This document shows, piece by piece, positions 47,663-64,000 of a stretch of DNA of 64,000 nt. A program made the position numbers and the translations under genes. The stretch is taken from the NCBI GenBank assembly GCA_945288535.1, contig CALYQQ010000002.1, positions 124,001-188,000 of the forward strand. Direction: 5' to 3'. Numbering within the stretch: position 1 is the stretch's first letter; the number at the start of each line of letters is the position of its first letter. The notes under the pieces are model-generated. The model searched no databases. It worked only from the letters and a program-made list of their open reading frames with translations, and was not told the DNA's origin. The stretch comes from an uncultured Enterobacterales bacterium. GTDB taxonomy: Bacteria > Pseudomonadota > Gammaproteobacteria > Enterobacterales > CALYQQ01.

Positions 47663-47970
47663 GCGAAATAAATGAATAGTAATCAATGAAACAATGTTAG
47701 CGTTATGCGTTTTATTATGCAATTATATTGGTATAAAATTTTGTATCATGACTTTTTTCAGAAAATAAAATTGGAAGTTTTTTGATTATCTTATTGTTTT
47801 TTAATCAAATTTTATAATGTGAGATTTTTAACCAACGAATGCTAATGTTGTTACATTGACATAGCGGGGTTAATTCATATTTTATTCAAAAATAACGCTC
47901 TATTTCACAACTTATCAACCTGATAGTAAGATAAAGGTTACATAGAGCCTTTTTAGATCATGTAACTATC
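47663..47970. other. Gap between artP and the RCC1-repeat gene
   Basis: This 308-base AT-rich spacer carries the art promoter region and the terminator of the upstream RCC1 gene (47886-47950). A TGAAT-like half site of an ARG box occurs at about 47673, but a full operator is not convincing. Confidence 0.5.
47886..47950 (-). terminator. Terminator after the RCC1-repeat gene
   Basis: GCTCTAT (47898-47904 region) pairs with ATAGAGC (47942-47948). On the minus strand the stem is followed by GTTATTTTTG, and on the plus strand by CTTTTT, so it may act in both directions. The loop is long, which lowers confidence. Confidence 0.5.
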
Positions 47971-49275
47971 TTATTGATTAAATTGTTGATAATAGATTTG
48001 CGAGCCAGGCCAATAAATAAATTTAGAATTTATCGGCACGATTTGATAATGGCTATTATTACCAACGCCAAATAGATCACCATATTCATTTATATAGTAA
48101 ATGTATTCACGACCAACAGCGATATCGACAATATGTTTGCCTATAGTTTCTTGTTTTGTGGGTCTTACACCGTATATATGTTGAGGATAATTCATGTGTG
48201 GTGATGTTAACCCCCACGTAAAGAGTTCACCTTTTGAGGATAAGGCAACAACACCTCGATAACGAGCATATAATTTTTCAATTTTAGCACCAATATTGAT
48301 TTTCTCGGGAGTTATTATAAATTCAGTGTTTCTATACTCAATTTTTTCAGAAGGTGATGTGTTATAAAGAACTCCCTTGCCTAGTGAGGCTGTATTTCCC
48401 CAACCAACTACCGAACCATCATTAAGCAATGCTGTCGCCCAACCCCAACCACCGCCAATATAAGTAATGTCTTTTGCAATCGACTCTAATGCATTGAAAC
48501 GAATAGGTTTAATGTGGTATCTTACTCCAGGGAATCCCATAACACCATCATAATTTCCTCCCCATACCCATACTTTATTTGATTGAGTAATTGCAAATCC
48601 GCCTTGCTGATGGTTACCAATTAACCTTACTTTTTCACCAGAAAAATCAACCCGTGTAGGAATTGGGTCGGGGTCACCTGAAATGCTAACACTTCTTCCA
48701 AGTTGGCCAAAACGACTATCTCCCCATGTCCAAACATCACCGTTTTTATCTAATGCAATGGAGAAACCATCAGCGGTAATAATTTGCTTTATATTACTTA
48801 TTACTTTACAAGGAATATAAGCATTTTCATTTTGATAACCAGATGACATGTTACCCGAATAACATCCAGCTTCATTAAAATATTGTTCTCCCCATCCCCA
48901 AACAGTACCATTAACATCTAGTACTAACATACTCGAGACTGCGCCACCAATATCTACAATTTGGGGTAAATTTTCAACCATTGTTGGTGGTGAAGAAATA
49001 TCCTCAACTGTATTATTACCTGTTTGCCCTTTGCGCCGCCAACCCCAAACCCATATTTTCCCATTAACAGCAATAATTCCTGTATTCGTTAATGAACTAT
49101 GAGCACCTATTATATTAAAAGAGGACATTAATTTAGCTTGTGGAATATAATCTCGTTTTATTTCAGCTTTTAATGTAGTACTAAAAAAAATAAGTAACAA
49201 AGCAATGTAGCTACTATAAGATGTGGTTTTTTTACTTTTAAATGTGCACTGAAATAGTTTTATTAAGATAGACAT
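47971..49275 (-). CDS. Predicted exported RCC1-repeat (beta-propeller) protein
   Basis: The 434 residues begin with a basic N-terminus and a hydrophobic stretch (about 20-36, SYIALLLIFFSTTLKA) ending in an Ala-type signal-peptidase site. The rest consists of RCC1-like repeats: GKIWVWGWRRKGQTGNN, GTVWGWGEQYFNEAGC, GDVWTWGDSRFGQLG, NKVWVWGGNYDGVMG, GSVVGWGN, GELFTWG and GDLFGVGNNSHYQI, about seven blades, which would form a propeller. No catalytic motif is visible. The function is unknown. Bacterial RCC1-type proteins include secreted ones and some acting on host targets. It stands alone next to the Tad pilus locus. Confidence 0.8.
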   Translation of the reverse strand: MSILIKLFQCTFKSKKTTSYSSYIALLLIFFSTTLKAEIKRDYIPQAKLMSSFNIIGAHSSLTNTGIIAVNGKIWVWGWRRKGQTGNNTVEDISSPPTMVENLPQIVDIGGAVSSMLVLDVNGTVWGWGEQYFNEAGCYSGNMSSGYQNENAYIPCKVISNIKQIITADGFSIALDKNGDVWTWGDSRFGQLGRSVSISGDPDPIPTRVDFSGEKVRLIGNHQQGGFAITQSNKVWVWGGNYDGVMGFPGVRYHIKPIRFNALESIAKDITYIGGGWGWATALLNDGSVVGWGNTASLGKGVLYNTSPSEKIEYRNTEFIITPEKINIGAKIEKLYARYRGVVALSSKGELFTWGLTSPHMNYPQHIYGVRPTKQETIGKHIVDIAVGREYIYYINEYGDLFGVGNNSHYQIVPINSKFIYWPGSQIYYQQFNQ

Positions 49276-50648
49276 CGTATTAATTAATCTCCTTAGCCAC
49301 TGCTTAAATATATAGTCTATTTATGATATGACCTTATAAATATAGATGTTAATACCAATGGATTGTTCTAATAGAAAAGTGCTCATTAATGAAAAGTTAT
49401 GCATTTTATGCATCACATAGCATTGTAAAAATAGTTATAACTTATAAAGTTAGAATTCTAGTAAGTTTATAATTATATGCTCTGGCCTGATATAACATAA
49501 AAGTAATTAATATAGCGTTCTATTTTATATTGAATATAAATAGATAGTAGACTCTTTATTTTCTTTTTCTACCAATTAATAACCTATTTATTTAAAATTT
49601 AATAAAATTAATTAAATCAATTAAAAAGTTAACTATATAGCTATTATTATGATCAATAGCGGTAAATGTGAAATTTTGATTTAAATATCGCTTATTTTAT
49701 TTAATTTCTTTTTATCTTTATTCATAAAGCTCTTAAGTTTTATAGTTAGTTATAAAGCTTACATGTCTATTATTATTAATAAAATCAATCATTATTGTAA
49801 AATAATGAACAAGATATATAGAAACGGATATATATATAAATGTATTTTATGATAAGTAAGTGTATCACAATAAGAAGGCATCATTAGGTTATCTCTATTT
49901 TATTTGGAAACATATAGCAAAATGTGGCCCCCTCTGTTTTTAAACATAACTTCATAGAAAAAATAAAAGTTAAGTTATATTCTTTATACTTTTTTATTAT
50001 ATAAAATTTAAAAAACTATAATTATATTATAAAAAAAAAACAGATAAGCCAATTATTAAGCTTTTATAAATATATTGCTTAATTAATTTTAATATAAATC
50101 AATATGATATTTACTTATTATATTAATAGAATATAAAATTAATCTTATGATATTCAACTTAATGTTAATTTTTTTTATTAAAATGTTAATTTTGTTGGTT
50201 AATTGATTGTTTTTGATATATATGTATACAAAAGATTTTTTTATAATAAAATCCAGACAAAAAATTATTATTCAGAATTTTAGTTATGCACTTTAAGTGA
50301 AGTTATGTGAAATAAATGTGTACACAATGTGTTTTTTCTGATTTTTCAAATAGTTTTTAAAGTTGCAATATTTAAATAAAGTAAAAAATCAATTGAGTAA
50401 ATATTTATTCATTGTGAATTTTTATTAAATTTAATTTTTTTGTTTTGGTGTGTTTTATGAATAATAAATTTCGTAGATTTATATGAAAATTTAGGTAAAA
50501 TACACGACAGATTCAGCGAAGAGTTCTTTTAAATGTATTCAGCTGAATAATCAGAAGATCTTAACTAAAGTTAGTTAAGTAATCTAACTAATTTAAGATT
50601 GATTAATTTAAATATTAAATGTCTATATCTATATAAGGAAGTTTAACC
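49276..50648. other. 1.37-kb AT-rich gap upstream of flp, no gene found
   Basis: The divergent interval between the RCC1 gene and flp has A/T runs throughout and no supported frame. The palindrome TGTGTACACA lies at 50317-50326, about 320 bases before flp. The composition suggests nucleoid-protein (H-NS-like) silencing of the pilus locus, which is inference. The flp promoter cannot be placed with confidence. Confidence 0.5.
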
Positions 50649-50888
50649 ATGTCTATTATCCAAAGTATCAAAAATAAAGTATTAGCCGGTTGTGTTGCTG
50701 TTGCTGAATTTAAAAATAACAACAAAGGTGTAACTGCAGTAGAATACGCAGTAGTAGTAGCAGGTGTAACTGCAATCGTTTTAGTAATCTTCAAAAACGA
50801 CGGTATAGTTGCTAACATGTTAACTGCTATCTTTAGTAAGATCGAAACTAGCGTATTAAGTGGTATTACAAATCAAGTTAATAACTAA
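50649..50888 (+). CDS. flp: Flp-family type IVb major pilin
   Basis: This 79-residue prepilin is the main subunit of the Tad pilus. The leader ends at Gly27 and is followed by VTAVEYAVVVAGVTAIVLVI, with the essential Glu at +5 and Tyr at +6 of the Flp motif. The mature form is about 52 residues with a hydrophobic core and a polar C-terminus. AAGGAAG at 50635-50641 gives strong translation. It is the first gene of the locus and is followed by a hairpin (50951) that would keep its transcript more abundant than the machine genes. Confidence 0.95.
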   Translation: MSIIQSIKNKVLAGCVAVAEFKNNNKGVTAVEYAVVVAGVTAIVLVIFKNDGIVANMLTAIFSKIETSVLSGITNQVNN

Positions 50889-51257
50889 TGAATAATATTG
50901 TTACACTAATTAAAAATTAGTGCTTATTATTTAAGTATACAGGCTTTATATTAACCCGTACAAAGTACGGGTTAATTATGTTCTTACTTCTCACTTCATT
51001 GCAAATTAAATTCATATAAAAATATGTAACGTATGAGTTTTATCTAAAAAAGTATATTATTAACAGATTTTAATAATAATTATTTCTTTATTATTGCCTG
51101 TTGAAATAATAACTAATACTATACAATACTACATGTTTAATTTTAGCTTCCTGTATAATGATTAATTAGGTTATTATATTTAAGCTTCACTTTATTTATG
51201 TTGTCATATTTTATGTGCTTTATTAAGTTCATCAGGAAGTATAGGAAAATTAATTAA
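50889..51257. other. flp-rcpC gap with terminator-like hairpin
   Basis: This 369-base AT-rich spacer contains the hairpin at 50951-50975 and otherwise no gene. A second promoter for rcpC onward may lie here but cannot be fixed. Confidence 0.5.
50951..50975 (+). terminator. Perfect hairpin after flp
   Basis: TTAACCCGTAC (50951-50961) and GTACGGGTTAA (50965-50975) form an 11-bp stem with an AAA loop, 62 bases after the flp stop. The following TTATGTTCTT is only moderately T-rich, so partial readthrough into rcpC is plausible. Confidence 0.7.
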
Positions 51258-52100
51258 ATGAAAAATTTTATTTCAATTGCATTAATTTTAGTAGGATTAA
51301 TTGGTATATTTATGCTGTACCAAAAACAGGATAATACTCCATCACAGGTTGTTAGTGCTCCCGTTATTAATAAAGATCCTGAAATTAAAGAAATGGTTAT
51401 TAGCGTAGCTATAGCTAAAGAAGACCTAACAGAAAAAATGATACTTACATCAGATGATTTTCAATTGGGAACCATTAAAGTATTGGAAAATTCTCAAGAG
51501 AAAAGAATATATGATTTAAATACAAATACATCAATAATAGGTTATGCGCTTAATGCACCTATTGCAAAAAACGCATTTATTCCTGTTACCGCACTTGTAG
51601 AGCCTGGTAGTCATGAATACGTCGATTTATTTAAACAACCAGGAACAATTATTTATACATTTAATTTACAAAAAGGTGATCAATATTTAGTTGATAATTT
51701 AAAATCAGGTGAATATGTTGATATATTTTTAGCGTATGAACGCAATCATTTATCAGGAGGTATTAATGAATATATTTCTCCTGGTGGAAGGAATAATGTT
51801 AATGATGTTTATTTAAAACCTGTTATGATGCATAAACGTGTTTTATCATTAAAAAAATTCCCTGGTATTGGCAATGAAAGTAATGGAAATGTACAGTTAA
51901 TTGTTGAAATTTCAGATATTGATATGAAAATAATAAAAGCATTAGAAGGCCGTTCTAAATTTGTGTTATTCCCATCATTACCTGATGATGTGGAAATTGA
52001 TATTAAATCTTCTTTACCTGAGAAGGAAGAAAATTGGCCTGTATCTGATGCAACAATTTTTAATACAGGTATAGGTGGTATTAGAGAAATACGAGGTTAA
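51258..52100 (+). CDS. rcpC: Tad pilus assembly protein RcpC/CpaB
   Basis: RcpC is a periplasmic SAF-domain protein that supports the secretin in Tad machines. The 280 residues start with a membrane/signal segment (ISIALILVGLIGIFMLY). The SAF domain at about 50-115 has SVAIAKEDLTEKMILTSDDFQ and IGYALNAPIAKNAFI, and the following RcpC-type domain has LKSGEYVDIFLAYER and NGNVQLIVEIS. The family link is by domain order and position before rcpA; overall sequence divergence is large. Confidence 0.85.
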   Translation: MKNFISIALILVGLIGIFMLYQKQDNTPSQVVSAPVINKDPEIKEMVISVAIAKEDLTEKMILTSDDFQLGTIKVLENSQEKRIYDLNTNTSIIGYALNAPIAKNAFIPVTALVEPGSHEYVDLFKQPGTIIYTFNLQKGDQYLVDNLKSGEYVDIFLAYERNHLSGGINEYISPGGRNNVNDVYLKPVMMHKRVLSLKKFPGIGNESNGNVQLIVEISDIDMKIIKALEGRSKFVLFPSLPDDVEIDIKSSLPEKEENWPVSDATIFNTGIGGIREIRG

Positions 52101-52328
52101 CAATAATTTAATAGATATTTTAAAATTATTTCATATTTTTATAGTTAATAATGTTTTTCTCTAAGATGTATATTTAGTTTATATTCTGAATTATTTTGTT
52201 AGATTATTCAGAATGATTATATAATAAATGAGTTTTAAGTATAATAAATACTTAATATAGTTGTATTTTATAACTACTTATAACTTAAAATAATATCTAT
52301 TTTAAATGGAATGAGAGGGACTGCAAAG

Positions 52329-53813
52329 ATGATGCAGATAATTACTAGCATTGGACAATCAAATATGCGTCATCGCATGCTAAATCTGTTAATTATCATC
52401 AATACTTTATTGCTTTTATTATTTTTAGCACCTTCAGCAATGGCCAATTATATATATTTAAAACCAGGCCAATCTAAAACAATTGACAGTAATGCATCTA
52501 TAGATACTGTATTTGTGTCAAATCCTGCTGTGGCTGATTATAAAATTCTTAGCGAAAAAAGAGTTGTTATTTATGCTAAAACGAATGGCCTTTCTGAAAT
52601 AACCTTATATGGAAATGATACAAAAGTTTTAGCTAAAGTAACTGTTGATGTTGATCCTATTATTAGTGACTTAACTTATCGCATAAAGAGTGCTTTTCCT
52701 AATACGGATGTAAGGATTCAGCGTTTAACTCAAACTACTACTAATGGAAAATCAGTTTATCTATTAACAGGTCAGATACCAGATGAAGAAACGGGCGATC
52801 TTATTTATTCAATTGTCGGCGAAACAGTTGGTACTGAAAAAAAAGAAATAGAGCTTAAACTTTATACTCCAGATGGTGGTACGAATGAAATACCGCTAGA
52901 ACATATGACTAAATATGTTTATCGAAACATTATAAAAAGATTTACCTTACCACGTCAAAAAGCTAACCAAGTTAATGTACAAATGGTAATTGTGGAAGTA
53001 AGTAAGGAGTTTACGGATGCAATTGGTGTTGAATGGTCTCAAATTGCTTTAGATCCTAATGGTAGTGCCTCTACGTTCGGTAGCCAAGGACATTTCCAAT
53101 TAATTAACTTTCACGGCTTTGATGCGCAACGTTTAGTTCATACTGTTAATGCTTTGAAGAATGAAAATTTAGCTAAAGTATTAGCTAATCCTAATTTAAC
53201 CGTATTATCTGGAGAAGTAGCTGAGTTTTTAGTCGGAGGTGAAGTACCTATCACTATTCGTGACTCAACAAACAATTCAGTCAGTACTAGCTATAAAGCG
53301 CATGGTATTATGTTAAGTATTGCGCCTAAGGTACTTCAAGATAATAAAATTAAATTAACATTAACAAGTGAATTAAGTAGTGCTTCAGATGTTAGTGCTT
53401 CAGATACATCATCACCTACATTTAAAACTCGTCGTTCAACGTCTACAATAGAATTAGCTAATGGGCAAAGCTTTGTGATGGGTGGCTTGTTAAAAGAAGA
53501 AGATATTGAAATACTAGATAAAATACCTATTCTTGGTGATATCCCTATTTTAGGCGCTTTAGCAAGAAATGCTAAAACAAAAAGACAAAAAACAGAATTA
53601 GTTCTCTTTGTAACTGTTAATTTAGTTAGCCCAGTAGATTCGCTATCAGAAATTGATATTCCTTCTACCGGTAATAAAACAAGTAGTACCAAATTACTTT
53701 TTAATGTTGGCATAAATAATGCTGCACGTGAAAATCGCTTACTGGGTAGTAAAAATAAGCAAATAGATTCTAAAACAGTTAGTTTCTTAGATCGTGGCGG
53801 ATTCGATAAATAG
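52329..53813 (+). CDS. rcpA: Tad pilus secretin RcpA/CpaC
   Basis: RcpA is the outer-membrane secretin through which the Flp pilus exits. A signal peptide (LLIIINTLLLLLFLAPSAMA, about residues 20-39) is followed by the N-terminal pilus-secretin domain with KPGQSKTIDSNASIDTVFVS, a BON-like part, and the secretin domain from about 275 with LSGEVAEFLVGGEVPI, GIMLSIAPKVL and the end DKIPILGDIPILGALARN. I prefer the ATG at 52329, 8 bases after GAGAGGGA, giving 494 residues, over 52311, which overlaps that ribosome site. Confidence 0.92.
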   Translation: MMQIITSIGQSNMRHRMLNLLIIINTLLLLLFLAPSAMANYIYLKPGQSKTIDSNASIDTVFVSNPAVADYKILSEKRVVIYAKTNGLSEITLYGNDTKVLAKVTVDVDPIISDLTYRIKSAFPNTDVRIQRLTQTTTNGKSVYLLTGQIPDEETGDLIYSIVGETVGTEKKEIELKLYTPDGGTNEIPLEHMTKYVYRNIIKRFTLPRQKANQVNVQMVIVEVSKEFTDAIGVEWSQIALDPNGSASTFGSQGHFQLINFHGFDAQRLVHTVNALKNENLAKVLANPNLTVLSGEVAEFLVGGEVPITIRDSTNNSVSTSYKAHGIMLSIAPKVLQDNKIKLTLTSELSSASDVSASDTSSPTFKTRRSTSTIELANGQSFVMGGLLKEEDIEILDKIPILGDIPILGALARNAKTKRQKTELVLFVTVNLVSPVDSLSEIDIPSTGNKTSSTKLLFNVGINNAARENRLLGSKNKQIDSKTVSFLDRGGFDK

Positions 53814-53854: not shown

Positions 53855-55006
53855 ATGAATTTATTTTCTGAAACAAAAATATCTGCTACACCAGAAAAAG
53901 CTAACGATGAAATAGATAATAGCCAATGTCATATTGTTGTTGTTTCATTGAGGAAAAAGCTATTAAATGATATAGCAAGCATACTGAGTATGCACAATAT
54001 GAATTCATTTAAAATTGAACAACAAAGCTTTTTTTTATTGCAAGATGATTCAATTACTCAGAATGCTAATGTCATTATATTAGATATTGCTGATACAACA
54101 GATGTAAATATCATTACAGAAAAAATGGGATTTATTGTCCCTATGTATGCTAAATGTATATTTGTTGGTGATACTGATTCTATTGCATTCTCTCAAGAAA
54201 TAGCGAGACGTGGAGCTGCATATTTGCATATAGCGACGCAATTATGGGAATTGGCTGATGTTATCGTAAGTTTGAATAGTAATGTTAGCTATAATGAGCG
54301 TAGTGCAGTAAAAATTAGCGTACTTGGATGTAAAGGTGGGGTCGGTACATCATTAATTAGCTATCAATTACTAGAACAGTTTGGTCAGCTTACTTCGGTA
54401 CCTACTTTATTAGTTCAAGGTGCTACAGGTAGTGCAGATCTTGATTTAATCATGGATAAATCTTTTATACAAAAAGATGGACAAATTCATTCTATAAATG
54501 AATCACTCAATGTGAAAATGGAAGCCAGAGATAGTGTTATTCGCTATGATGATTCCCAATATAAATTATTTAATATTATTTTAGTTGATCACCAGGTTCA
54601 TACATTATCACGTGAAAAATTAGAAATTATATTTAATAATTCACAAACACTTATTTTAGTTATTTCACATGAATTAGCCTCACTTCGTATAGCTAAAATC
54701 GTTCTTGAAGAAATTAAACGTGGAAGTGTTGCTGGTAATAGTGTAGTTCAACGTGTCTTTATTTGTTTAAATGAAAATAAATCAAATCCTGATAAGACAT
54801 TGACAGAAGCTGAAATTGCTGAATATCTTGGTCATAAAATTGATATAGTAAATCCTTTTCAAACAAAGAAAAACGGTAATATTAAAAAATTCACTAGCCC
54901 GCTATTTAGCCAATTCGCTGCTAAAGTATTGGGTAAATCTGGAGTGGAAAAAGAGTCATCAGTTCTAGTGAAAAAATTTAATATCCGCTCATTATTCAGT
55001 AAATAA
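53855..55006 (+). CDS. tadZ: Tad pilus localisation ATPase-like protein TadZ/CpaE
   Basis: TadZ is a MinD/ParA-like protein that places the Tad machine at the cell pole. The 383 residues have an N-terminal receiver-like domain (about 25-140, IVVVSLRKKLLND, VIILDIADTTD) and a P-loop domain from about 150. The P-loop is GCKGGVGTS, a family-typical deviant form lacking the usual second lysine. AGAGG at 53840-53844 is the ribosome site. An 11-bp tandem repeat follows before tadA. Confidence 0.88.
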   Translation: MNLFSETKISATPEKANDEIDNSQCHIVVVSLRKKLLNDIASILSMHNMNSFKIEQQSFFLLQDDSITQNANVIILDIADTTDVNIITEKMGFIVPMYAKCIFVGDTDSIAFSQEIARRGAAYLHIATQLWELADVIVSLNSNVSYNERSAVKISVLGCKGGVGTSLISYQLLEQFGQLTSVPTLLVQGATGSADLDLIMDKSFIQKDGQIHSINESLNVKMEARDSVIRYDDSQYKLFNIILVDHQVHTLSREKLEIIFNNSQTLILVISHELASLRIAKIVLEEIKRGSVAGNSVVQRVFICLNENKSNPDKTLTEAEIAEYLGHKIDIVNPFQTKKNGNIKKFTSPLFSQFAAKVLGKSGVEKESSVLVKKFNIRSLFSK

Positions 55007-55094: not shown

Positions 55095-56378
55095 ATGGAA
55101 TCCGAAAATTCAAGTAACTTACTCTTTTTTAGAGAACAAGTTTTAAAAAATATCGATTTAGAGCGCATTGAAAATCTTAAAGGTGATCGTAATTCATTAT
55201 TGCATGAAATTAATGAAATATTACAACGGATTATCAATAGTAGTGGTCGATATTTACAAAGTCAAAATCGGTTGTACCTTTCTGAATCTATTGTTGATGA
55301 AATTACTGGGTATGGTCCGCTACGCGAACTGATGGAAGATGACACAGTAAGTGATATTTTAGTTAATGGACCAGATAAAATTTTCGTTGAGCGTTTTGGT
55401 AAACTTGAACTTTCGAAAAAACGGTTTATTAATAATGACCAATTAACAGAAATAGCTCGTAGACTTGTTTCAAAAGTGGGTCGTCGTATTGACGATTCAC
55501 AACCACTAGTTGATGCGAGAATGCCTGATGGTAGCCGCCTTAATGTCGTAATTTCTCCAATTGCATTAGATGGTACATCAATTTCAATTCGTAAATTTGG
55601 TAAAGGTAAGAAAACGCTTGGTGATTTAATTGAATTCGGCAGTATGGACGAAATGATGGCTAACTTTTTAGTTATTGCTAGTCGTTGTCGTGCCAATATT
55701 ATTGTTTCAGGTGGTACCGGTTCTGGTAAAACAACATTATTAAATGCATTATCCCAGTATATCGCTGAAGATGAGCGTGTGGTTACCATGGAAGATGCTG
55801 CGGAATTACGTTTGGTTCAACCTCACGTTGTACGACTTGAAACGCGTATGGCTGGTGTGGAAGATAAAGGTAAAATTACCATGCGTAATTTATTGATTAA
55901 CTCATTACGTATGCGCCCAGATCGGATAATAGTGGGGGAGTGTCGTGGTGAAGAAGCATTTGAAATGTTGCAGGCTATGAATACCGGGCATGATGGCTCA
56001 ATGTCGACACTGCATGCAAACTCACCTCGTGATGCGGTTGCTCGTTTGGAAAGTATGGTGATGATGGCGAGTTCTTCTCTACCACTTATGGCTATCCGTC
56101 GTAATATCTCTTCGGCTATTAATATTATTATTCAGGCATCACGTTTACCTGATGGATCTCGTAAGGTGACGAATATTACTGAAGTTATGGGTATGGAAGG
56201 CGAAAATATGATTTTACAAGATATTTTTGCCTATGAAGCGTCAGCAGAGAGGGATACAAACGGGAGGATTCAAGGGCGTTTTGTTTCATATGGATTATTG
56301 CAACGATCAGCAGTATATAGAAATGCTATGTATCATGGTTTACTAGAGCCTCTTAAAAAACTATTTGGGAATAAGTAG
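55095..56378 (+). CDS. tadA: Tad pilus assembly/retraction ATPase TadA/CpaF
   Basis: TadA is the hexameric secretion-type ATPase that drives pilus polymerisation. The 427 residues include the N-terminal helical part, the PAS-like region with ITGYGPLRELMEDDTVSDILVNG, Walker A SGGTGSGKTTLLN at about 203-215, the Asp box VVTMEDAAEL, Walker B RPDRIIVGECRGEEA and the His box MSTLHANSPRDAVARLE. It is the most conserved gene of the locus. It is followed after 2 bases by tadB. The ribosome site is weak. Confidence 0.97.
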   Translation: MESENSSNLLFFREQVLKNIDLERIENLKGDRNSLLHEINEILQRIINSSGRYLQSQNRLYLSESIVDEITGYGPLRELMEDDTVSDILVNGPDKIFVERFGKLELSKKRFINNDQLTEIARRLVSKVGRRIDDSQPLVDARMPDGSRLNVVISPIALDGTSISIRKFGKGKKTLGDLIEFGSMDEMMANFLVIASRCRANIIVSGGTGSGKTTLLNALSQYIAEDERVVTMEDAAELRLVQPHVVRLETRMAGVEDKGKITMRNLLINSLRMRPDRIIVGECRGEEAFEMLQAMNTGHDGSMSTLHANSPRDAVARLESMVMMASSSLPLMAIRRNISSAINIIIQASRLPDGSRKVTNITEVMGMEGENMILQDIFAYEASAERDTNGRIQGRFVSYGLLQRSAVYRNAMYHGLLEPLKKLFGNK

Positions 56379-56380
56379 TT

Positions 56381-57301
56381 ATGGAAGCGATTCTTATTAT
56401 ATTTTTTATTATGATTATTTTAGGTGCTGTACAAATTTTAGCAGCACATAAACAAAAAACAAAAGCTAGAGAATTTTTAAAGATAATAAATAATCAGAAT
56501 CAAACAAAATCAACCATTGAAGATAAATTGTTAAAATATAATGTTGGTGTTGAAATCTTAGATTTAATAAATGATTTTATTTATCACCTCAAAGGCAATA
56601 ATAAAAAAGATGGAATGCGCAACCTTATTATCCTTTGTGTCATATTAGCTGTTTTTTATTACTTTAATGTCACGTCATTAAAATTACCTACTATACCGCT
56701 GTTAATTGTAGTTATGATTATTAGCTGTTACTTTCTTTACATAGCAGCTAAAAAAAGAGCACGTATAGAGTTCGAAACTACCTTTGCTGAGGCATTAAAC
56801 ATTATTGGAAGTGCAGTAAGTGTCGGAAATACTGTGTTATCAGGGATAGAGCAATGTGGTGATAAATTAAGTGGTTTTCATCTTGGTGAAGTTTTCAAAA
56901 AAGTTCATCAACGTATGGAAATTGGTGAAGATGTTGAAACTGTGTTGCTCGATACTTACTCTGAATTGCATTATCGCGAATATTATTTCTTTGCAATTGC
57001 TATCATCATAAACATGAAGGGCGGGGGGCAATTAAAAGAAATAATGTCCCGACTTGGTCAAATCATAACTAACGGTCGAGTGATGGAAAAGAAAAAACTA
57101 GCTAAAACATCAGAAGCTCGCATGTCTGTAAAAATACTTGCCATTATGCCTCTAGCGATGTTCTTTATTTTAAAATTTATTAGTCCACAGAACTATGAAG
57201 TACTTATAGAAACTAATGGGGGACATATTATACTTATTTACGTTGTTGGTAGTACATTATTAGGGTTAGCAATAACTTGGTCTATGATGAATAAGGTATG
57301 A
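56381..57301 (+). CDS. tadB: Tad pilus inner-membrane platform protein TadB
   Basis: TadB is a type II secretion F-domain platform protein, paired with TadC in the inner membrane. The 306 residues have an N-terminal membrane segment, two segments at about 85-130 and two near the C-terminus. The T2SSF domain has ARIEFETTFAEALNIIGSAVSVGNTVLSGIEQ-like sequence (about 126-157) and the typical INMKGGGQLKEIMSRLGQII with RMSVKILAIMP. It is closely coupled to tadA (2 bases) and tadC (7 bases). Confidence 0.93.
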   Translation: MEAILIIFFIMIILGAVQILAAHKQKTKAREFLKIINNQNQTKSTIEDKLLKYNVGVEILDLINDFIYHLKGNNKKDGMRNLIILCVILAVFYYFNVTSLKLPTIPLLIVVMIISCYFLYIAAKKRARIEFETTFAEALNIIGSAVSVGNTVLSGIEQCGDKLSGFHLGEVFKKVHQRMEIGEDVETVLLDTYSELHYREYYFFAIAIIINMKGGGQLKEIMSRLGQIITNGRVMEKKKLAKTSEARMSVKILAIMPLAMFFILKFISPQNYEVLIETNGGHIILIYVVGSTLLGLAITWSMMNKV

Positions 57302-57308
57302 TAAGATT

Positions 57309-58172
57309 ATGTATATTCTCTATCCATTATATATTGTACTTTTTTTAACGGGTCTCTATCTTTATTGGACAGGAAAGAAGCAACAACTTAACTTAAAAAA
57401 TATGTTAATGACGGATCAAGAAAAAGAGGAACTGAATTCGTCATCATTATTAACTGATAAAGAAGCGTCATCTGTTGAAAAAATTATGAGAAAATCTAAT
57501 AAAGTTATTATTTTTACATCTTTATTAGATAAAAACATTATGGTAAAAGCTATCTTTATTGGTGGTTTTTCAATAAGTCTTCTTATATTAAATGAAATTG
57601 GCATAATAAATATATCAGCTTCTATTTTATGTTTGATCATTATTCTGGTTATGATATTAACCATATTATTACCTGATCGACTTAAAAAAGGAGCCATTAA
57701 TGCGGGTATTAAACGAATATCCAATGATTTACCATTTATTATTGATATGATGGCAATTTGTATTCAGTCAGGCATGACAGTTGAGAAATCATTACGTTAC
57801 CTTGCCGATAATACGAGTAATATTAATAAAGATATTGCAGGATTATTAGATAGGACTATGTTGAAAGCTGATGTAAGTGGAATAGCTGCTGCGCTGGACT
57901 TATTATATGAAGAAGTACCTAGTGTTGAAATAAGGATGTTTTGTTCAACATTACAACAAAGTATAAAATATGGCTCTTCTATGTATGAGCAGCTTTTAGA
58001 ACTATCGAAAGAAATTCGTGAAATGCAATTATTAAAGGCTGAAGAGCATATATCAAGCCTTGCGGCAAAAATGACGATACCTATGATTGCTTTTATAATG
58101 TTGCCTATATTAGTAATGGTTGCTGGTCCTGGAATGATCAGACTTGGCGATTTATGGAGTCAATCACTGTGA
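57309..58172 (+). CDS. tadC: Tad pilus inner-membrane platform protein TadC
   Basis: This is the second platform protein, 287 residues with an N-terminal membrane segment, a pair at about 77-118 and a C-terminal one. The T2SSF domain has ISNDLPFIIDMMAICIQSGM, VEKSLRYLA and the closing SSLAAKMTIPMIAFIMLPIL, all typical of TadC. It overlaps the tadD start by 19 bases, implying coupled translation. Confidence 0.93.
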   Translation: MYILYPLYIVLFLTGLYLYWTGKKQQLNLKNMLMTDQEKEELNSSSLLTDKEASSVEKIMRKSNKVIIFTSLLDKNIMVKAIFIGGFSISLLILNEIGIINISASILCLIIILVMILTILLPDRLKKGAINAGIKRISNDLPFIIDMMAICIQSGMTVEKSLRYLADNTSNINKDIAGLLDRTMLKADVSGIAAALDLLYEEVPSVEIRMFCSTLQQSIKYGSSMYEQLLELSKEIREMQLLKAEEHISSLAAKMTIPMIAFIMLPILVMVAGPGMIRLGDLWSQSL

Positions 58173-59749
58173 GAAGGCCGCTAATCTTTTTTTTAAGTTT
58201 TACGTTAGCTGGTTGTGTTGGATTATTAGATCACTTACAAGATAAAGATTCTGACCATTTTCGTGAGAGCATTTTAATTAAAGCGAATAATTATCAAGGA
58301 TTATTACAACTTTACCGTGAACGCCTCAAAGAAAAAGATGATCCTGAAACACAATTAAAAGTTGCTGAATATTACTATTTATTATCGGATTATGAGGCAT
58401 CTCGTTATTTTTTAAAGCCATTACTCAATAATCCGAAATTATCAGAAAAAGCTTATTTATTACAAGCAAAAAATTTGCTTGATATAGGCGATAAACAAGG
58501 TGCATTGGATGCTGTAAATAAAGTTATTACTAAATTACCCATTGATGGAACAGCAAATAATATTAAGGGCATTATTCTCGCTGAACAGGGTGATTTTAAT
58601 GGGGCAATGAATGCTTTTAATATGGCAAGAAAGGATCTCATTGATGATGAAGTCGTCATGAATAATATGGCGATGATTTCTATATTGAGAGAAGATTATT
58701 CGCAAGCAATTGACTATTTATTGCCAATATATAGTAGAGGAATTAATTCGAAAAAAATTGTACATAATTTAATTTTTGCTTTGGTAAAAGATAAACGTTA
58801 CGAAGAAGCTGAAGCTATTTTAAAAAAAGAAAATATGACCGAAACGCTTGATGATTTAGTTGAATCATTGGAGCCTATTCGTTCAATGGTAACAGAGAAA
58901 CAAGATCCTTTTACTCTTGAAGAAAGAAAAGAATCCACTTTGAGCGATTTAACTGATCAAGAAAAAGAGTATTCAGCACGACCAGTTATGCCATTAATTG
59001 ATAATGCAAATCAACTAAATGGATATACTGAAGCTGCTAGAGGTAATGCTTTAGTAGAAACGAATAATACCCCTATAGATGAAACATACGATAATAATCA
59101 AAATGCTTATCAATCCCTACCAGAAGAGACAAATCAATTAAAAGAAACAGTCTCTACATTGAATGTATCTCCATTGGGTAGTGTTAATAATAGTGGTGTA
59201 ACATCTGTTTCTTCAGCTATAGAGACAGCTTCTATATTATCATCTCAGACTACGGCTAATTCACCTAAAGAGATGAGTACTTTTAATAATAATATAAATA
59301 CATTACCATTATTAGAGACGAATGATGTAACTAATAATAAAATAGAAACTCAAGAAATAATGCCAACGGAAAAAAATAACTTTACTAATAATAATGAAGA
59401 GTTAAAAGTAACCGTTACTGGTGTTAGAATTGGACAGCATAATAATGTTACGCGTTTAGTTATTGAGTCCGATAAACTTATTCGTTATAACCTTATGGAT
59501 AATCCAGCAAATAAAAGTTTAATTCTTGAGCTTAATCATGTTGAAATGAATGACATTGTTAGTAATACACGTTCCTATCTTAAACCTAACAATAAGATTA
59601 TTGACCGTTTAATGTTTAATACATCATCTGACGGTAAATTACAGCTTCTTTTTAATTTTAAAACTGCTATAAAAATTAATGCATTTAATTTACCGCCGGA
59701 TAATAATGCAAGGCATCGTTTGGTTTTAGATTTTATAAATAAAAAATAA
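58154..59749 (+). CDS. tadD: Tad lipoprotein TadD with TPR repeats and a C-terminal AMIN-like domain
   Basis: TadD is the TPR pilot-type lipoprotein of Tad systems. The signal peptide ends in the lipobox LAGC (about residues 18-21). TPR repeats cover about 35-220 (VAEYYYLLSDYEASRYFLKPL, AYLLQAKNLLDIGDKQGALDAV, NIKGIILAEQGDFNGAMNAF). An Asn/Thr/Ser-rich linker spans about 250-415. Residues 417-531 look like an AMIN domain: VTGVRIGQHNNVTRLVIES, LILELNHVEMND, LQLLFNFKTAIKINAFNLPP and RHRLVLDF follow the E. coli AmiC N-terminal domain block for block. Typical TadD is about half this length. The AMIN part probably binds peptidoglycan. Confidence 0.85.
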   Translation: MESITVRRPLIFFLSFTLAGCVGLLDHLQDKDSDHFRESILIKANNYQGLLQLYRERLKEKDDPETQLKVAEYYYLLSDYEASRYFLKPLLNNPKLSEKAYLLQAKNLLDIGDKQGALDAVNKVITKLPIDGTANNIKGIILAEQGDFNGAMNAFNMARKDLIDDEVVMNNMAMISILREDYSQAIDYLLPIYSRGINSKKIVHNLIFALVKDKRYEEAEAILKKENMTETLDDLVESLEPIRSMVTEKQDPFTLEERKESTLSDLTDQEKEYSARPVMPLIDNANQLNGYTEAARGNALVETNNTPIDETYDNNQNAYQSLPEETNQLKETVSTLNVSPLGSVNNSGVTSVSSAIETASILSSQTTANSPKEMSTFNNNINTLPLLETNDVTNNKIETQEIMPTEKNNFTNNNEELKVTVTGVRIGQHNNVTRLVIESDKLIRYNLMDNPANKSLILELNHVEMNDIVSNTRSYLKPNNKIIDRLMFNTSSDGKLQLLFNFKTAIKINAFNLPPDNNARHRLVLDFINKK

Positions 59750-60057: not shown

Positions 60058-60519
60058 ATGGTTACTTATGAGTATAAAGGGTTATTAGTTCGCGTACCAG
60101 ACAGTGTTAAATATATTGTAACAGGGTCAGATGGTGTTGTTCGTGGATATCCAAGTCGTCCTGACTTGAGTAATCCTGACTCCTTAATACAATCTCCAGA
60201 AGCTGTAAAAGTTATGGTAGTTAACTATTCAGATACACTAATAGAAGCTTCTGGATTGAAAAAATATGAACCAATAGTCGTCTACGAAACAGCTGTTCCA
60301 AACTCCAAGCCTTATGAGGCTGGTGATACCTTGACTTTACAAACTAGAATTGATGAGGAGAAAGCACGTATATCAGAAGTTCATGTTGTTGTTAACTGCT
60401 ATACGCCAGGGTTAAAACCGTGGACTCAGATTCTACAAGTAAAAGTCAATGGGCTATCTATAGATAATATCATTCTTACAACAGTTACTGACGTGTTGTT
60501 TGAATATCGTCCTTCTTAA
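60058..60519 (+). CDS. Unknown 153-residue protein within the Tad locus
   Basis: I do not recognise this protein. It has no signal peptide or membrane segment and is predicted to be beta-rich, with alternating hydrophobic stretches (VKVMVVNYSDTLIE, EPIVVYETAV, ARISEVHVVVNCY, TQILQVKVNG, NIILTTVTDVLFEY). The ribosome site AGGG lies 7 bases before the ATG. Its place between tadD and tadV, in the same direction, suggests a link to the pilus, but no Tad component of this type is known to me. An accessory or regulatory protein is possible. Confidence 0.75.
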   Translation: MVTYEYKGLLVRVPDSVKYIVTGSDGVVRGYPSRPDLSNPDSLIQSPEAVKVMVVNYSDTLIEASGLKKYEPIVVYETAVPNSKPYEAGDTLTLQTRIDEEKARISEVHVVVNCYTPGLKPWTQILQVKVNGLSIDNIILTTVTDVLFEYRPS

Positions 60520-60628: not shown

Positions 60629-60976
60629 ATGGAACACATTGATGTGATCTCATTTTCTGCTAGACTAGTTCAAGCTGATATTATAAGTGGTTATATTCCA
60701 AATGAGCCTGTCATGGGAAATCGTGATGAGTTAATTAGTTTAAGATTAAATTTTTATGTTAACTTATTATTATCATTACGAAATGATTTGTGTGAAAAAC
60801 ATGATGATATAGATGAGATATTATTAGCTAAAAATTTAAAAACTGCAATAGAACTTGTTTCTGCAGAAATATCTTGTTTATATATATCATTAGCACCTGT
60901 TTTATATGATAGGGATGAGATGATTAGCGAACGAATAAATTATTATTTTCAACAATTGATAGTATTAGATTTATAA
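60629..60976 (+). CDS. Unknown 115-residue protein with an internal duplication, within the Tad locus
   Basis: I do not recognise this protein. It is acidic, probably helical and cytoplasmic, without signal peptide. Residues 27-50 and 90-113 are an internal repeat with a 63-residue period: PVM..RDELIS.RLNFY...LLSL and PVL..RDEMIS.RINYY...LIVL share the RDE-IS-R-N-Y core. This suggests an ancient tandem duplication, perhaps forming a symmetric helical bundle. GAGG at 60618-60621 is the ribosome site. It follows the previous unknown gene by 109 bases and precedes tadV by 67. Confidence 0.75.
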   Translation: MEHIDVISFSARLVQADIISGYIPNEPVMGNRDELISLRLNFYVNLLLSLRNDLCEKHDDIDEILLAKNLKTAIELVSAEISCLYISLAPVLYDRDEMISERINYYFQQLIVLDL

Positions 60977-61043: not shown

Positions 61044-61481
61044 ATGAATTTATTACTTATTGGAATTATATTGTTAATGCTTTGTTATATCAGTTTTACC
61101 GATATGAAAAGGCGAGAAATTGATAATATACCGATAGTTATTATATTTTTACTTTCAATTTTTGTTGGAATATTTGTTACAGATTCAATAAGTATTTTGA
61201 TTCCTACTACTATATTAGTCGTTGGTATTATCCTAAGTAGTTTAAATTTGTTAGGTGGTGGAGACGTTAAATTATTATTTGCGTTAACAGTTGGTTTATC
61301 TAGTGAGATGATTTACCATCTATTTATTTTAACCTCTTTCGCTGGGATCCCTGTCGCGATAATAGCATGGGTCGTACATAAATTTAAAAAAAGCCAAGGT
61401 AGATGTGAAGTTCCGTATGGTTTAGCAATATCATTGGGATATATACTTACGTTATTAGCAAATGATATAAAATTATTTTAG
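61044..61481 (+). CDS. tadV: Tad prepilin peptidase TadV/CpaA
   Basis: TadV is the membrane aspartyl peptidase that cleaves the leader from Flp and the TadE/TadF pseudopilins. The 145 residues have about five membrane segments. The first catalytic aspartate lies in FTDMKRREIDN, and the second in the GXGD-type motif LGGGDVKLLFAL. It starts with AAGG at 61033-61036. In Aggregatibacter-type loci tadV follows flp; here it is placed near the end before tadE. Confidence 0.93.
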   Translation: MNLLLIGIILLMLCYISFTDMKRREIDNIPIVIIFLLSIFVGIFVTDSISILIPTTILVVGIILSSLNLLGGGDVKLLFALTVGLSSEMIYHLFILTSFAGIPVAIIAWVVHKFKKSQGRCEVPYGLAISLGYILTLLANDIKLF

Positions 61482-61550: not shown

Positions 61551-62060
61551 ATGATGACCTCATTAAAGAAGAATATTCAATTAAAATTTATTTATAATAA
61601 TCTTATAGCTAGAAATAAAAAAGGTATTATAGCAATTGAGTTTTCACTGATAATAATACCTTTTTTATCCTTATTTTTACTTACTGCTGAAATATGCAGA
61701 ATGCTTTATGTAGCATCTGTAATTAATCTATCCTTAGCAGAGTCGTCACGTTATGCGGCTAATAATAAAGAAATTTCTTACAAAGTTGCTTTTATCGCTA
61801 ATTTGAAAAAGAATTTAAGTAATATTCCGTTAATAGCTAATAATAATCAGATATCTTTTAATGTTAGCTATTGTCAATCTATTGAAAGCATTATTGTTGA
61901 AAATTGTACAGAAAATAATGAAAATAATATGCCATTAGCAATATATCGTATTACTTATCATTACAAGCCAATATTTTTTATTTTACCTAATAACTATACT
62001 GAAAAAATGATATCAAAAAGTTTGGTTTATGTTCAGGAATATGAAAGAAATAATTACTAA
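61551..62060 (+). CDS. tadE: Tad minor pseudopilin TadE
   Basis: TadE is a minor pilin-like protein, processed by TadV and needed for pilus assembly. The 169 residues have a basic N-terminus and a processing site after Gly25, with IIAIEFSLIIIPFLSLFLLT following and Glu at +5. The C-terminal part is periplasmic with a cysteine pair (CQSIESIIVENC). It precedes tadF by 16 bases. Confidence 0.88.
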   Translation: MMTSLKKNIQLKFIYNNLIARNKKGIIAIEFSLIIIPFLSLFLLTAEICRMLYVASVINLSLAESSRYAANNKEISYKVAFIANLKKNLSNIPLIANNNQISFNVSYCQSIESIIVENCTENNENNMPLAIYRITYHYKPIFFILPNNYTEKMISKSLVYVQEYERNNY

Positions 62061-62076
62061 CTTGAATAGATAACAT

Positions 62077-62697
62077 ATGTATAAATTATTAACGGCTATT
62101 AAATATAAATTATCTAAATTTATTCATAATAAATCAGCAATCTTATCGATTGAATTTATTATGATTTTTTTGACTTCGGTATGCTTAATATTTATTGCGA
62201 TTGATTTTAGTCTTATGTTGTTACAACAAGGGAAAATAGAAAGAATAAATCACTCGCTTGCGTCAGTTTTAAGGGAAAGAAGTTCATTGTATAGCAATAA
62301 TGGTGCATTGAGTAGAGATACATTTGAATATGTAACACAACAAGATGTTGATCAATTAGCAAGGTTAGCTGTTAAATTATTAGGTCGTAACGATATCGCA
62401 TTAAAAGTTGAACAATTACATTTTGATGAAAATTCTCTTGAAAAAATTATTGATAAAAAAAGATCTAATCAAATAGATGCTAATGGTATGAATGGTCAAT
62501 GTAAGATTGATATGGCACCCTTTAAAACATTTGTAGACTATTCATCAAGAAGCCAACTTAATCGTTGGTTACCCCTTTATAGAGTTACATTATGTATTCC
62601 CGCAAAGCAAAGCATGTTAACAAAGATAATATCATTTATTAAGAATGATAAAGTTATTAATGAATTATCCGTTTCAAATTTGGTCGTGCCGAGATAA
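62077..62697 (+). CDS. tadF: Tad minor pseudopilin TadF
   Basis: This is a pseudopilin of the TadE/TadF family, 206 residues. The hydrophobic segment begins ILSIEFIMIFLTSVCLIFIAIDF with Glu26 at +5, but the residue before the predicted cleavage point is Ala21 rather than Gly, a mild departure from the usual site. The periplasmic part contains TFEYVTQQDVDQLARLAV and two cysteines (GQCKIDM, VTLCIPAK). It is followed by tadG after 48 bases. Confidence 0.85.
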   Translation: MYKLLTAIKYKLSKFIHNKSAILSIEFIMIFLTSVCLIFIAIDFSLMLLQQGKIERINHSLASVLRERSSLYSNNGALSRDTFEYVTQQDVDQLARLAVKLLGRNDIALKVEQLHFDENSLEKIIDKKRSNQIDANGMNGQCKIDMAPFKTFVDYSSRSQLNRWLPLYRVTLCIPAKQSMLTKIISFIKNDKVINELSVSNLVVPR

Positions 62698-62745: not shown

Positions 62746-64000
62746 ATGAATTATCATGTGCTTTTTAAAGTCAAAGCTAAGTACATATTTAATAAAATAG
62801 TCGCTTATTTCCATATGAAAAAGGGCGTATTAGCCTTATCATTTGCAATTATGTTTCCTTTCTATATTGCTTTCCTCATGCTCGCTATTGACGGTTCAAT
62901 GTTACTAAATAAAAAAGCACGATTAGCCGATAGTATGAATGAGGCTGTTTTAGTTATTGCAGCTATTAATAACTACAATAAAACAGCTAGTGATTTACAA
63001 ACAAATTTAAAAGTTCTCGATCACTTTTTAAAGTTTTATTTGCCAAAATCTATATATTCTATGGATGACCTACAAATAAAAATTAAGCTAGTTGATGAAG
63101 GTAACGAGAATAAGCAAAACTATGTCGATTATCGTGCTGTTGCCAAAATATCGGTTAATACAATTTTACCTTTATTTAAGTTAGGATTACCTAGTTTTAA
63201 TTCTACTGTCACGGTAAGTAATTACAATACAAATAGTGGAAATGTTAGAAAGTATAATATTCCTAATGCTATAGATATGGTATTACTTGTTGATTTTTCT
63301 CGTTCTATGAATAAAGAAATGGCACTGGATTTGGACAAAAAAACACAGGCTAAACGTATTGATATTTTAAAAAAAGTTGTTAATAAAGTTATAGACGGTA
63401 TATTAAAAATTGAAGGATCAAAAATAGCGATTGTTCCTTTTGATATAGGTGTTCCTGTTATTAGTAAGCATAAAAATGAATTTAACCAATATGATTTGGA
63501 ATGTTCTGTATTATTTGTTCCAAAACAACAATATAAAATTAATTATAATTTTTGGGCAAATAAATTTGTGGATGCAAAACGAGATAGCCTTGATCCAGAT
63601 AAAGATGAGATTAAACTAAATGAAATTATTTATTATATGGATAATGCTAGGTATCAATATTATTTAAACATGTTTTTACCTATGCATCCAGAATTAGAAA
63701 ATGATATGAATAAGTTAGTTAATACGCCATTTTCTTTTTGTAAATTTAATACTAATGGAAGTATTATTAAAGGATATGCTAAATATAGTTGTGAATGGGA
63801 AGAGATAAATAGTATATTTAGAGAACCTAATCTAGAATTAATTAAAAATGAATATAATAAAGTTATTTTAAATCTTAGAACTATGCGATCACCAATAGAA
63901 ACAGCAAATGGGTTAGGTTATATATCCTTTGTTAATCATGAAACTGTTGATATAGAAAAAACAATAGAAGGGATGTTTGATAGTAATAATATTGTTAGCT
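62746..64000 (+). CDS. tadG: Tad assembly protein TadG with vWA domain, 3' end outside the window
   Basis: An open frame from the ATG at 62746 runs to the window edge, about 418 residues without a stop. The N-terminal segment is KKGVLALSFAIMFPFYIAFLMLAIDG (about 25-50, hydrophobic), followed by KKARLADSMNEAVLVIAA, typical of the TadE/TadG group. From about residue 178 a von Willebrand A domain begins (MVLLVDFSRSMNKEM) with the MIDAS motif DFSRS at D183. TadG is membrane-anchored with a large periplasmic part. TAAGAT upstream is a weak ribosome site. Confidence 0.88.
   Translation, partial: MNYHVLFKVKAKYIFNKIVAYFHMKKGVLALSFAIMFPFYIAFLMLAIDGSMLLNKKARLADSMNEAVLVIAAINNYNKTASDLQTNLKVLDHFLKFYLPKSIYSMDDLQIKIKLVDEGNENKQNYVDYRAVAKISVNTILPLFKLGLPSFNSTVTVSNYNTNSGNVRKYNIPNAIDMVLLVDFSRSMNKEMALDLDKKTQAKRIDILKKVVNKVIDGILKIEGSKIAIVPFDIGVPVISKHKNEFNQYDLECSVLFVPKQQYKINYNFWANKFVDAKRDSLDPDKDEIKLNEIIYYMDNARYQYYLNMFLPMHPELENDMNKLVNTPFSFCKFNTNGSIIKGYAKYSCEWEEINSIFREPNLELIKNEYNKVILNLRTMRSPIETANGLGYISFVNHETVDIEKTIEGMFDSNNIVS

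Follow-up and report, generated by a model that had tools for sequence, protein, structure and literature searches.

We consider it reasonably likely that the predicted exported, seven-bladed RCC1 propeller described here serves the Tad (type IVc) pilus as a binding module located at its tip or associated with it; on the evidence of related bacteria, the protein is probably part of the pilus's grip on a surface or host. The gene lies in the window, that is the whole stretch of DNA analysed (64,000 nucleotides from an uncultured Enterobacterales bacterium, genome G000), beside a Tad locus (Table 1). The link to the pilus is weaker for this copy than for its family, as the gene is divergent from flp, sits on a long branch and has two paralogues away from Tad genes.

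The window gene encodes a predicted exported RCC1 propeller

The open reading frame begins with ATG, 13 nt downstream of a ribosome-binding-like motif. Its product matched the Pfam families WD40_RLD/RCC1-like (9.2e-49), RCC1_2 (1.4e-19) and RCC1 (9e-15), each above the curated cut-off. At E≤1 no Pfam family beyond the RCC1 types was found; the PilY1 propeller family (PF05567) was not matched, nor was any TadE/Tad family, and with a Sec-like start the protein showed no class III signal or pilin N-terminus. An NCBIfam search yielded no name for the RCC1 proteins. Seven blade motifs of the form [VIL][FWYVI]x[WVMLIF]G start at residues 74, 125, 181, 235, 289, 351 and 401, with an eighth match, out of spacing, at residue 106. 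When the protein was shuffled 20,000 times, no shuffle reached eight matches (mean 0.99), which together with the Pfam matches above cut-off ruled out a chance repeat.

An AlphaFold2 model of residues 40-434 gave a pLDDT of 78.5 and a pTM of 0.82 with a 29-row alignment of distant rows. The 28 rows added to the query comprised 27 from 24 of 42 distant RCC1 loci on viral contigs, which served solely as alignment depth, and one from locus L006; they were picked by profile score and by eye, and the remaining viral-contig loci were omitted. A single-sequence run gave a pLDDT of 35 and was discarded. By sequence comparison, the PDB entries matched were UVR8, HERC2 and RCC1, while the best structural matches of the model were UVR8, HERC1/2 and RCC1. 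Foldseek aligned the model to UVR8 at 8e-28, and a second structure aligner returned Z scores of 39.1 for UVR8 and 36.5 for RCC1. BLIP-II (PDB 1jtd, 3qhy), likewise a bacterial RCC1-like propeller that binds a protein partner, scored 24.8; it differs in being a beta-lactamase inhibitor, and we know of no link between it and pili. By its repeats and its modelled fold, the window protein is thus a seven-bladed RCC1-type propeller. The first-pass annotation had read about seven blades behind a probable signal peptide and had named structure prediction as a check, which bore the fold out.

A signal-peptide-like start was also seen, as judged by a rough scripted rule of charge, hydrophobicity and cut site: the N-terminus has four net positive charges and a hydrophobic core at residues 24-33, and a possible cut after residue 37 would delimit a putative signal peptide. 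Cys138 and Cys156, which lie in one loop, may form a disulphide. Of 21 family rows, 13 have the two cysteines and 8 have neither, with no row showing just one; such retention or loss as a pair would be expected if an exported protein used them for a disulphide.

The fold alone is no proof of a Ran GEF role, and the predicted exported N-terminus speaks against one. A eukaryotic-style Ran effector was dropped as the main reading, having no support beyond the fold. That the protein had been called eukaryote-like says little, since exported bacterial RCC1 propellers are already in print (PMC4449606, PMC3447821, PMC12206443, all cited here from the excerpts available); two of these papers also concern the surfaces of host-associated bacteria (PMC3447821, PMC12206443).

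Table 1. Features in and around the RCC1 gene and the Tad locus (positions in the window).
Feature	Position	Strand	Evidence
RCC1 propeller gene, 434 aa	47971..49275	-	ORF, Pfam, model, PDB matches
probable signal peptide, residues 1-37 (cut between LKA and E)	49165..49275	-	rough rule on charge, hydrophobicity and cut site
seven-bladed RCC1 domain, about residues 55-425	48001..49113	-	blade motifs and model
AAGGAG ribosome-binding-like motif	49289..49294	-	read from sequence
long A+T-rich gap, RCC1/flp divergent	49276..50648	.	Rfam and promoter scan against shuffles
flp, Flp/Fap pilin	50649..50888	+	Pfam 1.2e-8
rcpC/cpaB-like	51258..52100	+	NCBIfam CpaB 0.0023, below cut-off; gene order as at L025
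rcpA/cpaC secretin	52311..53813	+	Pfam Secretin 1e-40
tadZ-like	53855..55006	+	no Pfam match; position and similarity to L025 counterpart
tadA ATPase	55095..56378	+	Pfam T2SSE 9.4e-69
tadB and tadC	56381..58172	+	Pfam T2SSF 2.9e-11 and 9.2e-15
tadD-like TPR protein	58154..59749	+	weak TPR matches; equivalent place in L025
tadV prepilin peptidase	61044..61481	+	Pfam Peptidase_A24 2.2e-11
tadE minor pilin	61551..62060	+	Pfam TadE 1.2e-5
tadF minor pilin	62077..62697	+	Pfam TadF 9.1e-25
tadG with vWA, running beyond the window end (L089:2747-4663, 638 aa)	62746..64000	+	VWA_2 1.7e-7; TadE 0.016, below cut-off

Genomic context and paralogues

The gene does adjoin Tad pilus genes, as had been claimed: flp, the first of them, begins 1373 bp from the RCC1 start codon on the other strand, followed on the same strand by cpaB-like, secretin, tadZ-like, tadA, tadB, tadC, tadD-like, two small ORFs, tadV, tadE, tadF and tadG. 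Besides its vWA domain, the window TadG contains a DFSRS stretch of MIDAS form (read from the translation). Genes resembling those for an amino-acid ABC transporter, as read from their translations, flank the RCC1 gene on the opposite side. As the window copy is divergent from flp, its layout is not one of co-transcription with the Tad genes. Rfam gave no match between positions 47700 and 51300, and promoter-like matches in the RCC1-flp gap were no commoner than in shuffles.

Some other features of the locus were noted in passing. A 12-bp terminator-like hairpin lies immediately 3' of flp (50950-50976) and could allow flp output in excess of that of the remaining locus. The small ORFs at 60629-60976 and 60058-60519 had no Pfam match; the product of the former is 40% identical over 103 aa to that of an ORF (L091:14991-15515) in the Tad locus of another genome, G772.

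Two further RCC1 paralogues are encoded in G000, one of 521 aa on contig C15 and one of 392 aa on contig C18; 19.0 kb was read around the former and 15.6 kb around the latter, and the queries used found no Tad gene in either stretch. The C15 paralogue (L023:8957-10522) has an Ig_VWA7-like domain, matched at 4e-7, and the gene adjoining it is one which we take to be glutathionylspermidine synthetase-like. Among 59 relatives searched there was no genome of the same family as G000, and G000 itself yielded no 16S sequence. Orphan tadE-tadF-tadG(vWA) sets were seen in G000 (contig C11, L136:7389-10767) and in G047 (L137:7572-10529), with other Tad genes not seen alongside. By analogy with the Kil system of Myxococcus, in which exchangeable tips are described on one machine (PMC12075869), they are possibly second tip cassettes on one pilus machine.

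Occurrence of RCC1 genes at Tad loci

A family neighbouring that of the window genome (f27) was represented by 44 genomes, five of them less than 90% complete. TadZ was present in 21, and in every one of these the Tad locus included an RCC1 gene, intact in 18 and broken in 3; this count, like those for the order and for family f18 below, is raw and uncorrected for kinship. The gene lies between tadG and tadV on the same strand in 19 of the 21, and in the remaining two (G404, G405) it is divergent and adjoins tadV, rather as in the window. It occurs in three tandem copies in G101, G220 has an extra copy 3' of tadV, and the RCC1 reading frame of G047 overlaps that of tadV. The first-pass annotation had described the gene as standing alone; this did not survive the comparison, since in other genomes the gene is a regular member of the Tad locus and G000 itself has the two paralogues described above.

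The three broken copies comprise two frame-shifted genes (G288, G179) and one fragment (G278), and TadG is full-length in all three genomes. Their Tad loci (L071, L072, L087) are otherwise full, with no homopolymer run suggesting phase switching. Among the 23 f27 genomes without TadZ, a single one (G397) had an RCC1 match at 1e-15; the protein matched is a distant one, and 20 kb of its surroundings showed no Tad gene. That 553-aa protein (L086:8594-10255) has no signal-peptide-like start and a weak N-terminal CBM_5_12 match (0.011), and is perhaps a phage-tail part.

In the order sample, 22 of 394 genomes matched RCC1 at 1e-20, four of them through distant kin (G088, G124, G150, G265), all without TadF. 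The Tad-linked type, assigned from the stretches read, was present in 18 genomes, all within the 68 of the 394 with TadF. This RCC1 type was absent at 1e-20 from 50 of these 68 (one of which, G278, keeps the fragment), so that Tad pili do not need RCC1 and the gene is confined to some lineages. In the class sample, the one match at 1e-25 among 369 genomes was the window's own. The description of the gene as rare in gammaproteobacteria is thus fair for this RCC1 subfamily. A sequence search of genome contigs gave one distant Bacteroidota locus as its sole match, and plasmids gave 39 matching records, all below 60% identity among the matches listed (20 of the 39). No housekeeping role turned up among the genomes examined.

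Fusions of RCC1 propellers to TadG-type pilin modules

In a further family (f18), RCC1 matches were found in 5 of 295 genomes, in four of the five at a Tad locus. Two of them (G772, G904) carry tadE, tadF, tadG and RCC1 consecutively, the RCC1 protein having a signal-peptide-like start; the vWA domain of TadG was scanned for in G772 alone. The Tad locus of G772 also includes a gene for a Ras/MglA-like small GTPase (L091:15980-16540, Pfam Ras 1.4e-6).

The other three genomes, each of a different genus (G377, G771, G927), encode between them four proteins in which a TadG-type pilin N-terminus is followed by RCC1 to the end of the protein. In G377 and G927, the latter with two tandem copies, the fusion (585-599 aa) comes directly after tadE-tadF, the place held by tadG in loci with a standalone RCC1 gene. 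The G771 fusion is 555 aa long, and the 17 kb read there includes no further Tad gene. A phmmer search with the TadG of the window genome found three of the four fusions at 2e-13, 2.5e-12 and 3e-11 among 797 ORFs, and a profile built from the N-termini of vWA-type TadG proteins matched all four, at 1.4e-13, 8.4e-9, 8.9e-6 and 1.9e-4. This profile also matched TadE, TadF and, weakly, Flp, and therefore recognises the pilin class and not TadG alone. Pfam found no vWA domain in any of the fusions (at E≤0.05 for G377 and at E≤1 for the others). As Pfam vWA matches to known TadG proteins are themselves weak, the argument that the domain is missing comes mostly from lack of room, RCC1 filling the whole part C-terminal of the pilin module.

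These fusions bear on two other roles. The standalone forms, with a signal-peptide-like start and no pilin N-terminus, and with their genes adjoining tadG and tadV, might be expected of an accessory that helps to assemble the Tad pilus from the periplasm or outer membrane and stays with the cell, such as a chaperone or a checkpoint acting on TadG or on the secretin. We regard this as unlikely, because natural fusion to a pilin module fits a part borne on the filament better, because 50 of the 68 TadF-positive genomes do without RCC1 at 1e-20, and because RCC1 diverges faster than the nine other Tad proteins compared (see below). An effector injected or secreted to act on host small GTPases would share its fold with RCC1, and RCC1-repeat effectors of Legionella have reportedly been described (PMC7157520); such a role is most improbable here given the Sec-type N-terminus, the position at the Tad locus, the pilin fusion, and a Pfam profile without any domain besides RCC1.

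Sequence divergence and phylogeny

Ten Tad-locus proteins were compared across ten loci of the group g43, namely 10 of the 14 g43 genomes with TadZ; those left out were G155 (a near-copy of G190) and G288, G179 and G278, with their broken RCC1 genes. Flp, TadA and TadB were not part of this comparison. RCC1 had the lowest mean pairwise identity of the ten, 49.6%, followed by TadE, TadF and TadG at 59.8-61.5% and by CpaB, TadC, TadV, TadD, TadZ and the secretin at 70.5-82.6%. An order in which RCC1 diverges most, then the tip pilins, then the machine, would be expected if RCC1 were a recognition part exposed at the surface. The same order could come from relaxed constraint, and the three broken RCC1 copies warn in that direction.

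In the unconstrained phylogenetic tree the branch of the window copy is long (1.64). Its group (support 100/99) is made up of the window copy and its two paralogues, the four TadG fusions and one non-Tad protein, from G371. A clade joining it to the 23 standalone Tad RCC1 proteins was not recovered and not rejected either (p 0.144), and a single clade of the three G000 copies was borderline (p 0.046). That the window copy descends vertically together with the divergent copies of G404 and G405 was rejected (AU test, p 4e-5). Of the two trees built, the second omits the five distant RCC1 proteins, and the broken copies are absent from both. The G371 protein (L056:6073-10254) has 1393 aa, with C-terminal RCC1 and a weak vWA-like stretch (VWA_2 0.011, below cut-off); no Tad genes were found in the 20 kb read around it.

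From this placement, the link to the pilus is strong for the RCC1 family and weaker for the window copy. The latter could be an independent secreted or surface RCC1 protein, next to flp incidentally and no part of a pilus, and its two paralogues away from Tad genes, its orientation divergent from the operon, its long branch and its grouping with those paralogues would all agree with this. We nevertheless think it rather improbable, as homologues lie at the Tad loci of all 21 TadZ-positive f27 genomes, two of them likewise divergent, and the same tree group contains the four TadG fusions.

A possible propeller at the Tad pilus tip

A role at the Tad tip is proposed because of several published models, again known from excerpts. 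TadE, TadF and TadG have been modelled as the Tad tip complex, the C-terminal domain of TadG being modular and variable (PMC12075869), and the pilin-vWA protein CpaL has been placed likewise at the tip (PMC12607857). PilY1 proteins are described as having both vWA and a seven-bladed propeller (PMC13190605), and PilX2, a minor pilin of Saccharibacteria type IV pili with an RCC1 propeller, is an adhesin candidate (PMC12206443). On this basis the window protein would be exported by the Sec route and fold in the periplasm, would join the minor pilins TadE, TadF and TadG in their complex, with TadG and its C-terminal vWA domain as the likeliest point of contact, and would be displayed at the pilus tip as a binding head for a surface or host ligand.

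PilX2 is the nearest precedent in print (PMC12206443). In Nanosynbacter lyticus TM7x it likewise sets an RCC1 seven-bladed propeller on a pilus of the type IV class, as a proposed T4P-2 adhesin; it differs in that the propeller there forms the C-terminal part of a minor pilin, type IVa-like and from Patescibacteria, whereas here it is a separate, predicted exported protein or a TadG-type fusion and accompanies a Tad pilus. PilY1/PilC of type IVa pili show that one tip protein can combine vWA and a seven-bladed propeller (PMC13190605, PMC12607857). The layout described here would resemble that of PilY1, with vWA and propeller on two genes or with the propeller replacing vWA; it differs in the separation of the two genes, and the Pfam PilY1 family is unmatched. 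TadG, KilN and CpaL, predicted at the Tad tip, join a pilin N-terminus to a C-terminal domain that is large and exchangeable (PMC12075869, PMC12607857). The fusions of G377, G771 and G927 share this build but carry RCC1 as the C-terminal domain, a kind unnamed in the excerpts of those papers, while the window protein has no pilin N-terminus. The LPxTG-anchored RCC1 proteins of bee-gut Bifidobacterium are likewise exported propellers of gut bacteria in tandem copies (PMC4449606, PMC3447821), but they are attached by sortase to a Gram-positive cell wall and carry a Flg_new domain, and the excerpts draw no link to a pilus. In open-licence PMC literature no paper was found that joins RCC1 and Tad pili.

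Against a tip module stand the position of the window copy outside the Tad operon, its long branch, its grouping with non-Tad paralogues as well as with TadG fusions, the many TadF-positive genomes that lack this RCC1, the breadth of the TadG N-terminal profile, the G771 fusion away from other Tad genes, and the broken RCC1 genes at 3 of 21 f27 Tad loci with intact TadG. The suggestion of a surface or host-interaction factor tied to an adhesion locus stands at the level of the family, through position, co-occurrence, TadG-type fusion and fast divergence, but is weakened for the window copy itself.

Tad pili are widespread, and to our knowledge few of their tip ligands have been identified. With an RCC1 gene conserved at the locus and naturally fused to TadG-type pilins in some genomes, there is a concrete candidate for the Tad tip. 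More tentatively, some Tad pili may have a PilY1-like tip in two pieces, a vWA TadG and a separate RCC1 propeller, and in certain enterobacterial lineages the propeller may have taken the place of vWA on TadG itself; RCC1 might then be a new class of exchangeable tip module, serving host or partner recognition by gut symbionts. If this is true, the tip solution of vWA plus propeller would have been reached with a propeller family other than that of PilY1.
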